From positions 1 through 64,000 of the forward strand of contig JALIZF010001265.1 in the NCBI GenBank assembly GCA_029948255.1: a stretch of 64,000 nucleotides of DNA, read 5' to 3'. The notes beneath the pieces were generated by a model. It saw nothing but the letters and a program-made list of their open reading frames with translations, did not search any database and was not told where the DNA came from. Below, piece by piece: positions 34,999 through 61,588 of the stretch. The stretch comes from Telmatactis stephensoni (lineage: Eukaryota > Cnidaria > Anthozoa > Actiniaria > Isophelliidae). Numbering within the stretch: position 1 is the first letter of the stretch; each line of letters begins with the position of its first letter. The translations under genes and the position numbers were made by a program.

Positions 34999-37900
34999 TC
35001 ATGTCTGGGCTACCCCATACCTGTCATACAAAGGGTTTTCAGTTTTCTTTTCATCAAGACTTTGTTCTATCTGTTTGTTCATACTGTAAAGTGAAATATA
35101 AACCATGCATTCAAAACAAAATCAATAAGCAATAATCAACAGTCACAAGATCAATGACAAAGTTAATCTCGTTCCCAGGGCTCTGAATTTCAAGAAAAAA
35201 AGAGAAAGAAAGAAAGAAAGAAAGAAAAACAAGCATGCGCGGTAAGAAAGAACGGCTCTATCTGGGCATGTCTACCCTATCTGCGCATGCACGGAACGGC
35301 TTGAAGAAAAAAGAAAAGAAAAAATATTTCCATCACTTTTCCACTTAAACTTTAATCTGGTTGTTGCGCGTAAGCCAGCAGTTTTTTATGTTCTTACCTT
35401 TCATAGATTGGGTTATCTGTTTTTATGTCATCACTACAAACAAACAATGTATATCAGTGCCAAGAATAGTTTCAATGGAACGTAACCCGAGTGCTGCATA
35501 TATATCGCTTTCTATCTACCATTCCCTTTCTAAAACCTGCCACTCCTTGTCACGTGAACTAGACTGTAGTGGCAAGATAGAGCTCCCAAATTTGGTTCAT
35601 AGTCATTAATATTTTCCTATAATCTCAAGCAATTCCATTAGCAATTTTTGAGGGTAAAATGGCACAACGTTCAGGTCCTGGAAAACTGTCAACTTGGACC
35701 CTAGACGTCTCAAACTTTGAAAATGTGTCTTTCAAATAGTAGATTTGTATGGATACTTGAATAAAACTAGTTGCATGTTTGGCGGAACCTCAAAAAGCCA
35801 TATTTAACTGAAGCGTAATCGAATTAACAGAATTTTCAGTGAACGCAATCATTTCATGAACGTTATTAGAGTGGATTTCGTATGGACTCTCGTACCATAG
35901 CTGACGCACTGCAGCAGTAGCATCGAATTTTGATTGGTTGATTGGAGCCCATCCAGGTTATACCACAGCTGATTGGTTCAGTGCCATTATTGGCACCGTT
36001 GCCATGACCGTAGTTTTCCCACTGGTAGCTCAAGCTCGACATTAGAGGGGTATTTTTGTTAAAAACGCTCAAATGGCGCTAATTAAAACTCGGCCACAAA
36101 GACGAAAGTGCCAAAAATAAGAGATCTATGCTAAAAACGACATGATTAATTATTGCAAAATCTTGAAAAAAGAAAGAATGATATGATTTGTCGCTACATA
36201 CATTTCAGGCCCGTCGCTTGGGGTGGTTCGAATGATCGAACCCCCTCGGCCCTTCCCACAGAAAATAGCGACATAGTACTTTCCCTTAATTACAGTCACC
36301 TTGTTGCATTTCTCTCTATGGCATAATGGTATTATAGAGTTTTATCAAAACCCCAAACTTCAGTTATTTATCTTAACGATAACTAAGTTTTGATAAATAA
36401 ATAAATAAATAAATAAATAAATAAATAAATAAATAAATAAATAAATAAATAAATAAATAAATAAATAAATAAATAAATAAATAAATAAATAAATAAATAA
36501 AATAAATAAAATAAATTTATTTATTAATTCTTTTATAATTTTTTTTCTGTCTTTTCTTTCTCTCTTCTTATTAACAACTAATTTTGATTTTGAGCCACGT
36601 AAAAGAAAAACAGAAAATTATAGAAAAGAAGAGAAAAAGAAAAAGAAAACAGAAAGAGAAGGAAAAAAAAAAAAAAGGTGAAAAGGCCCTAGCCGGTTTT
36701 GAACCCGGCTCTTACATTTGCTCATGTGCTTCACAGTTCAAGGGTTTTCCAACTGCGCCACGGGATCGCGTAATTTGCACAACAATAGACAGTCCATTCA
36801 AAGGATGCACTACGTTATTTTGACCTTCAAATCCCTTAGTAGACCAGTTAGCCTAGTGGTATGGTGCAGTCATTTACGGCCTAGGATCCGACTGTTTCCT
36901 CCCTCTTTGACCGCGAAGCTCGCTGCGTTCTACCTGATAGCGCGGATGGGGCCGAAATCTCCATCCTATACGTAACATGCGATGATTCAGCGATTTGTCT
37001 GGATGCATGGTCCGATTTTTTAGGTTTTGCATAAAATTAGCATACTAATTTGCTTGGGTACCGGGTTCGATTCCTGACTGTGTCAGCAACTTTTTTTTTC
37101 TTTTTTTTCTTTTTTTTTTTCCTTTTTTGGATTCTATTTCTCTTCTATAATTTTTCTTGGTCTAAAATTCTGGTCTTTAGTGAAAAAAACTACATAAACT
37201 CTTTACATTAGCTTGTGATGCTTTCAAATTAATTTTGCGTAATTTAGAAGACAAAATCCCTGGAATAATATAGTCATTTATCTATGAGAACAAATGAAAT
37301 TTTCATCATTCCATTTTCCAAAGGCCCTTTGGACCTCTGATGCCTATGCATTTAAGTACTCCCTAATTACCTAGTATGGTGGAGATCAATAAACATACAA
37401 ATATCAACTATTCTCTAATATCGAGCTTGGGCTCCCTGTGCTTTTCTCACTCGTACAAAATAAATGGTTGTACTTACGGTGATGCGTACAACGTGTTTTC
37501 AGAAGTTTCGACATCCTTTTTCTTTTGAAATTCACTGTAATTCGAATAAATATAATTAGGAAGGTATTTGGTTTGGTACAGACCAAGGGAGAGAGGGAAG
37601 GGGAGTGGGGTCATGTAACCATATACCAATTGTTTGTTTTCTACTTTCTGAGACCTAAAAGTGAAGGTAAAGATAGAGCACTGATATTAAGCGTCGGGAG
37701 TTTCTACAACACGAAGCTCGCTGGTCTTTCAGAAAGCCGACGATGCGTGGCTCTTTAGCTGGGCTTCTCTCTCCATCAGTCGGCTCTGTTTTAAGGGTAT
37801 AAAATTTAATTAAAGCCAATTAAAGCTACACAAAAAGGAATGAAGTCGAAACAAGTGTGAGGTGACTGGGGATCAAACTCGGGACCTCTCGATCAGAAGG

Positions 37901-61588: not shown

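Follow-up and report, generated by a model that had tools for sequence, protein, structure and literature searches.

The stretch of DNA analysed here (the window) comprises 64,000 nucleotides of contig JALIZF010001265.1 from the anthozoan Telmatactis stephensoni and carries, between positions 34999 and 61588 of the minus strand, two predicted receptor genes whose exons splice in frame. Gene 1 is modelled with 9 exons (44101 to 34999, minus strand) encoding 596 aa, and gene 2 with 14 exons (61588 to 50435, minus strand) encoding 503 aa. Both models run from an ATG to a stop codon without internal stops, the coordinates proposed in an earlier note on this DNA are correct, and the exon numbers agree with those given there. 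The product of gene 1 is composed, in this order, of a signal peptide, an ApeC domain, a CUB domain, a Thr-rich stalk, a helix and a tail, and that of gene 2 of a presumed signal peptide, a Cys-rich domain, a Thr-rich stalk, a helix and a long tail. The modular receptor design with two different ectodomains, as suggested in that note, is supported. The exons are the following:

44032..44101, minus strand: gene 1 exon 1, start codon and signal peptide
42339..42956, minus strand: gene 1 exon 2, ApeC domain, phase 1-1
41495..41872, minus strand: gene 1 exon 3, CUB domain, phase 1-1
40415..40763, minus strand: gene 1 exon 4, Thr-rich stalk followed by the transmembrane helix, phase 1-2
39710..39823, minus strand: gene 1 exon 5, juxtamembrane tail without NxxY, phase 2-2
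38318..38401, minus strand: gene 1 exon 6, NPIY and NSEY, phase 2-2
37478..37534, minus strand: gene 1 exon 7, NTLY, phase 2-2
35398..35433, minus strand: gene 1 exon 8 (36 nt), NPIY, phase 2-2
34999..35083, minus strand: gene 1 exon 9 (last), NPLY and stop codon
61486..61588, minus strand: gene 2 exon 1, start codon and presumed signal peptide with the short core FCFVLVWLV
60149..60451, minus strand: gene 2 exon 2, Cys-rich ectodomain with a possible likeness to the GT18 C-terminal domain, phase 1-1
58682..58816, minus strand: gene 2 exon 3, Thr-rich stalk, phase 1-1
55067..55265, minus strand: gene 2 exon 4, stalk followed by the transmembrane helix, phase 1-2
54739..54861, minus strand: gene 2 exon 5, NPVY, phase 2-2
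54233..54304, minus strand: gene 2 exon 6, tyrosines without NxxY (TYYS), phase 2-2
54090..54146, minus strand: gene 2 exon 7, PYSNN and YEEV without NxxY, phase 2-2
53279..53344, minus strand: gene 2 exon 8, VYHNPHYEAL, phase 2-2, first copy
53114..53182, minus strand: gene 2 exon 9, NVLYQKV, phase 2-2, first copy
52611..52676, minus strand: gene 2 exon 10, duplicate of exon 8 (65/66 nt identical)
52421..52489, minus strand: gene 2 exon 11, duplicate of exon 9 (64/69 nt identical)
51634..51663, minus strand: gene 2 exon 12 (30 nt), NVLY, phase 2-2
51330..51359, minus strand: gene 2 exon 13 (30 nt), NQLY, phase 2-2
50435..50624, minus strand: gene 2 exon 14 (last), NPLY, YVEN, NPIY and stop codon

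The borders of exons 6, 8 and 9 of gene 1 were fitted by hand to in-phase GT/AG sites. Splice sites were scored with matrices written from general consensus frequencies, so that absolute scores are rough; with these approximate matrices, weak values were obtained for the acceptors of exons 4 and 6 of gene 1 and of exons 3, 4 and 13 of gene 2, and also for the donor of exon 9 of gene 2. The intron phases follow one rule in both models, which is the one that had been described for this locus: all six extracellular junctions (three in each gene) are phase 1, all fifteen junctions from the helix exon onwards (five in gene 1 and ten in gene 2) are phase 2, and the single switch takes place at the helix exon. 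Hydropathy indicates one strong helix per protein beyond the N-terminus, with its peak within residues 447-474 in gene 1 and its position within residues 213-246 in gene 2.

Contrary to what had been assumed, the two genes are not direct neighbours. An ORF of two exons that shares their strand (48546-48345 and 47033-46090), encoding a basic, Ser-rich protein of 381 aa for which no Pfam match above the cut-off was found, sits between them, and an imperfect inverted repeat of about 200 bp, recognized by eye and resembling a fold-back transposon, lies at about 45040-45260, between gene 1 and this ORF. Another inverted repeat, also seen by eye, is located just past the stop codon of gene 2 (about 50260-50420), perhaps within its 3' UTR. 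A stop-to-stop frame of 963 aa (58534-55643, minus strand) lies inside intron 3 of gene 2 and matches reverse transcriptase with an E value of 5.6e-30 and endonuclease with one of 6e-6; by these matches, it is a non-LTR-type retrotransposon. Downstream of gene 1 and on its strand, a gene with a PXA domain (E 6.7e-42), presumably of the sorting nexin type, begins at about 33190 and runs downward, and about 163 copies of a 17-nt unit (23711-26497) adjoin it or lie inside it. The first positions of the window (1-3456) are occupied by about 65 copies of a 54-nt unit, whose open frame matches PHD_2 with no single stretch passing alone, and this match is probably an artefact of the repeat.

Both proteins had been described as starting with a signal peptide. 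This stands for gene 1, whose N-terminus passes the 19-residue hydropathy cut of 1.6 with windows starting at residues 4-6. The N-terminus of gene 2 is less certain on hydropathy, because it offers only a short hydrophobic core: FCFVLVWLV reaches a mean of 3.04 over its 9 residues, and the best 19-residue mean is 1.37, under the cut.

The ectodomain of gene 1 is readily assigned. The product of exon 2 matches the Pfam family ApeC (PF16977) at residues 30-228 with an E value of 1.6e-50 and 172.3 bits, against a gathering score of 26.5, and the full profile (1-208) is aligned. Its eight cysteines equal, matched by count, the eight conserved cysteines given for ApeC in the excerpts of PMC8361754. 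Exon 3 encodes a CUB domain (PF00431, E 3.9e-19), which in a search of PDB sequences matched the cubilin chain 3kq4_B with an E value of 1.4e-22. When prokaryote contigs were scanned with the ApeC exon, relatives were not found in them. Amphioxus ACP5 also combines ApeC and CUB, with the CUB domain right behind the signal peptide and the ApeC domain at the C-terminus (PMC8361754, in part), whereas in gene 1 ApeC precedes CUB, and the helix and the tyrosine-bearing tail come after both. The word "transmembrane" is absent from the ACP papers PMC8361754 and PMC9585378.

The ectodomain of gene 2 had been presented as a new Cys-rich module. Its novelty is now doubtful, since it resembles the C-terminal domain of the GT18 family, even though this likeness stays below the Pfam cut-off. 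The whole protein had no Pfam match above the cut-off. With the ectodomain alone and E values up to 10, a scan in which the HMMER filters discard most weak matches returned GT18 (PF15024) as the sole match, with an E value of 0.23 and 10.5 bits, below the cut-off of 28. The alignment covers positions 460-557 of the 557 in the profile, which is its exact C-terminal end, and the GT-B catalytic part is absent from gene 2. None of ten shuffles of the ectodomain with the cysteines fixed hit the GT18 profile.

Comparison with MGAT5, a protein chosen by hand, gave mixed results. The eight cysteines of gene 2 are spaced 3-6-20-26-11-11-1 and those of MGAT5 3-6-20-20-10-10-1, both ending in CPC, and a likeness as good (at least six of the seven spacings within one residue) arose in 42 of 2,000,000 random placements of cysteines; the C-terminal domain of MGAT5 has two further cysteines that are not in gene 2. 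MAFFT pairs six of the eight cysteines of gene 2 with MGAT5. The best local alignment of the two spans 13 residues and has an ordinary score, which full shuffles reach in 295 of 5000 cases and shuffles with fixed cysteines in 601 of 5000, and searches of PDB sequences gave best E values of 0.3 (whole gene 2 protein) and 0.041 (ectodomain), MGAT5 not being among the matches. Of the four subdomains of GnT-V, the C-terminal one contains five of the eight disulfides (PMC6107550, in part). As judged from the profile match and the cysteine pattern, a relation between the Cys-rich module of gene 2 and the C-terminal domain of GT18 enzymes (MGAT5/GnT-V) is possible to probable, and the module may have arisen from that domain. 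A single-sequence structure prediction of the Cys-rich exon had a pLDDT of 31.6, too low to be of use, and it was discarded. A scan of viral contigs with this exon and with the gene 2 tail did not find relatives.

The tails are rich in NxxY motifs. There are five in gene 1 and nine in gene 2, where shuffled tails contain 0.44 and 1.34 on average, and none of 5000 shuffles reached the observed number in either tail; the same is true of the narrower NPxY form, with three copies in gene 1 and five in gene 2 (0/5000 in either). The earlier count of nine for gene 2 was right, whereas the four or so reported for gene 1 become five, the extra one being NSEY, and both YEEV and YVEN are present in gene 2 as reported. 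As had been noticed, short tail exons usually carry one tyrosine site: 12 of the 15 contain at least one NxxY, the exceptions being exon 5 of gene 1 and exons 6 and 7 of gene 2.

Across the 14 sites, a count that includes two pairs from duplicated exons, S or T stands two positions before N in nine, D or E directly before N in six, P or V after N in eleven, L or I before Y in ten, and D or E after Y in seven, followed by S in five, which yields the loose consensus [ST]-[DE]-N-[PV]-[LI]-Y-[DE]-S for both tails. An aromatic residue at Y-5 is found in only two of the 14. These belong to VYHNPHY, present twice in gene 2 through the duplicated exons, which fits the uptake form [FYIVL]xNPxY and is reached by none of 5000 shuffles. 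The ITIM form VLYQKV also occurs twice in gene 2 by duplication and not in gene 1, and 1058 of 5000 shuffles reach two. Readings of the tails as carriers of ITIM or YxxPhi motifs were dropped, as neither exceeded chance in shuffles. A weak match to the GAPT family, lying exactly at the Pfam cut-off of 21.1 bits for the helix and tail of gene 1 and below it for gene 2, was counted as driven by the helix, because it disappears when the helix is left out.

Since exons could have been chosen for containing motifs, we also ran a scan that ignores the gene models, except that the tail regions were picked from them. It collects AG...GT blocks of 24-130 nt, with a length divisible by 3, open in the given phase, with splice scores above a threshold and an NxxY inside. 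At the loosest thresholds (acceptor -2, donor 0.5), the minus strand of the tail regions holds 12 sites, distributed 12:0:0 over phases 2:1:0, whereas the opposite strand of the same regions has a single one, in phase 0. Eight control sites (three in phase 1 and five in phase 2) lie on the two strands of the remaining sequence, 106.8 kb in all. At thresholds of 0 and 1.5 these numbers fall to 8, 0 and 2 sites, respectively, and at the strictest ones (2 and 2) to 6, 0 and 1, the six being all in phase 2. The 12 sites are all modelled ones, five of five in gene 1 and seven of nine in gene 2, whose other two lie in the terminal exon. The control sites (8026, 9989, 18697, 21539, 30559, 57926, 58007 and 58752) form no second tail, and two of them share one block opposite the retrotransposon.

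The last NxxY of gene 1 enters the scan by way of a donor-like site, CAG/GTATGG (35020-35015, minus strand), placed directly after NPLYD in the last exon, which looks as if it were the read-through of an internal cassette. Because of this site, a further exon past exon 9 was sought from 34999 down to 33190 on the minus strand, where the sole NxxY in any frame is NNFY at 33929, without signs of a cassette.

Exons 8 and 9 of gene 2 have been duplicated in tandem as exons 10 and 11. The two copies differ at 6 of 135 nt in the exons and at 13 of 92 aligned nt in the intron inside the duplicated unit (Fisher p 0.014); this intron matches at 79 of the 92 in an alignment of 125 columns, with gaps in addition. 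The lone change between exons 8 and 10 is silent, and those between exons 9 and 11 all fall after NVLYQKVDD. That the exons are more alike than their intron supports their reality and, at the same time, points to a route by which docking sites multiply. In addition, joining any two tail exons directly never creates a stop codon at their border, so that all the skip combinations, 16 in gene 1 and 512 in gene 2, stay open. Symmetric cassettes without junction stops mean that sites can be gained by duplication or skipped with the frame intact.

These results bear on the possibility that some or most of the tail exons are chance open blocks. The models do come from sequence alone, several exons have weak splice scores and the gene 1 borders named above were adjusted by hand. 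However, the restriction of the scan to phase 2, its nearly empty controls and the better conservation of exons over intron in the duplicate make such an artefact very improbable.

That both tails belong to one family is weakly supported. Their local alignment scores 81, against a mean of 40.2 (sd 7.0) for residue shuffles, of which 1 in 2000 reaches that score. When the NxxY blocks are held in place, the mean rises to 60.0 (sd 8.3) and 28 of 2000 shuffles reach it, a modest result, and the exon borders agree no better than by chance: one of the four borders of gene 1 meets a border of gene 2 in every one of the six alignments made (three modes, each run with the duplicate included and with it left out), a coincidence equalled or beaten by 6091 to 10225 of 20000 random placements. 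An exon-by-exon homology that looked good by eye in one alignment was rejected, as it was unstable across alignment modes and not significant. A BLAST comparison of the two proteins (E 1e-5) was not relied on either, because it was run with low-complexity filtering and composition correction off and aligned the Thr-rich stalks.

Two unrelated tails, which gained their NxxY cassettes independently and whose common phase is a coincidence of separate expansions, would account for the scarce border matches and for the scores of the motif-kept shuffles. It would be harder to reconcile with the same phase switch at the helix exon, the same strand, the close neighbourhood and the similar flanks of the sites, and we regard it as somewhat unlikely. 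Common descent of the two tails is suggested by their sequences.

Taken as a whole, the features described would fit type I single-pass receptors for recognition or uptake, whose tails are strings of docking sites for PTB proteins, a reading to which we would give an even chance. By analogy, such a role is plausible, as the earlier note had proposed, since ApeC proteins bind peptidoglycan and NPxY docks PTB adaptors in engulfment receptors. Peptidoglycan binding has been described for ApeC proteins of amphioxus and molluscs (PMC8361754 and PMC9585378, both in part), an immune cell type of a stony coral is enriched in antimicrobial ApeC transcripts, listed among secreted proteins (PMC8162421, in part), and NPxY recruits or may recruit PTB proteins in MEGF10, Draper and CED-1 (PMC8092387, in part).

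In the proposed mechanism, each receptor would expose at the cell surface a recognition domain borne on a Thr-rich, probably O-glycosylated stalk. The ApeC and CUB domains of gene 1 would likely bind the bacterial cell wall or a similar surface, and the Cys-rich, perhaps GT18-C-like domain would be the recognition module of gene 2. Upon clustering by the ligand, Src-type kinases and PTB-domain adaptors of the Shc, Dab or CED-6/GULP type would engage the docking sites strung along the tail, usually one per symmetric phase 2-2 exon, and, in the manner of CED-1/Draper/MEGF10, these would in turn trigger uptake and signalling. How many docking sites a tail has, and of which kind, may be set by tandem duplication of exons, as seen from 8-9 to 10-11, or by exon skipping.

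The same tails might instead serve constitutive clathrin cargo or scavenger receptors, where unphosphorylated NPxY is sorted via Dab/ARH-type adaptors and additional copies only raise the rate of uptake. VYHNPHY has the form expected for this, but the other 12 of the 14 sites lack the aromatic residue at Y-5, and the acidic residue that follows the tyrosine at 7 of the 14 suits kinases. Binding of NPxY to PTB proteins such as CED-6 may also take place without tyrosine phosphorylation, according to in vitro data (PMC8092387, in part). On balance, we consider constitutive sorting unlikely.

Immune signalling receptors of the ITIM/ITAM type, tuning responses to self and non-self like Hydractinia Alr or Botryllus FcoR, represent another alternative. 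VLYQKV has the right form in both duplicated copies, and in Botryllus FcoR alternative splicing swaps tyrosine motifs (PMC12065747, in part). Nevertheless, the number of ITIMs does not exceed chance in either gene, and the Pfam scan found no Ig domain, which makes this alternative distinctly unlikely.

Regarding its closest known counterparts, the reading as recognition or uptake receptors would place both genes next to CED-1/Draper/MEGF10, which are likewise single-pass proteins with modular ecto- and endodomains and a tail whose NPxY and ITAM/YxxL motifs are read by PTB and SH2 proteins (PMC8092387, in part). The EMI/EGF-like ectodomain of these receptors was not found in genes 1 and 2 by the Pfam scan, and an NPxY is named for each of their tails in the excerpts of that source, whereas genes 1 and 2 mostly distribute their NxxY motifs over separate symmetric exons. 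The mammalian CEACAM and KIR paired receptors exchange helix and tail exons together against ectodomains and also have small cytoplasmic exons (PMC2110893, in part); in dog CEACAMs, however, the first YxxL of the ITAM is interrupted by an intron in phase 0, while here the motifs are whole within exons bordered by phase 2. Hydractinia Alr and Botryllus FcoR share with our genes the tyrosine-motif tails of invertebrate receptors in gene complexes (PMC12065747 and PMC11999971, both in part), but bear Ig-type ectodomains and ITIM, ITAM or hemITAM motifs in place of NxxY.

Related designs are already known, in the small tail exons of mammalian CEACAMs and in the splice-swapped tyrosine motifs of Botryllus FcoR. 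Among the matches listed in the open-access literature, considering titles and the starts of abstracts, neither ApeC-CUB receptors with NxxY tails nor symmetric single-tyrosine tail exons were found for cnidarians, and this absence is weak evidence that the design is new.

A broader and more speculative idea, which we find doubtful in its entirety, is that anthozoan receptors follow a two-phase exon code. Ectodomain modules would be of the 1-1 type and docking modules of the 2-2 type, joined solely through the helix exon (1-2), so that each compartment could be shuffled freely within itself but not mixed with the other. The splicing of single-tyrosine cassettes, with up to 512 in-frame tails for gene 2, would then set the adaptor repertoire of each cell for the uptake of microbes or symbionts.

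It is still an open question by what means cnidarians take in microbes and algal symbionts and tolerate them, and few cnidarian uptake receptors have signalling tails that are known. A class of receptors with NxxY cassettes would provide direct candidates, and its genomic signature, phase 1 outside, phase 2 inside and NxxY exons, could be searched for in any coral genome.
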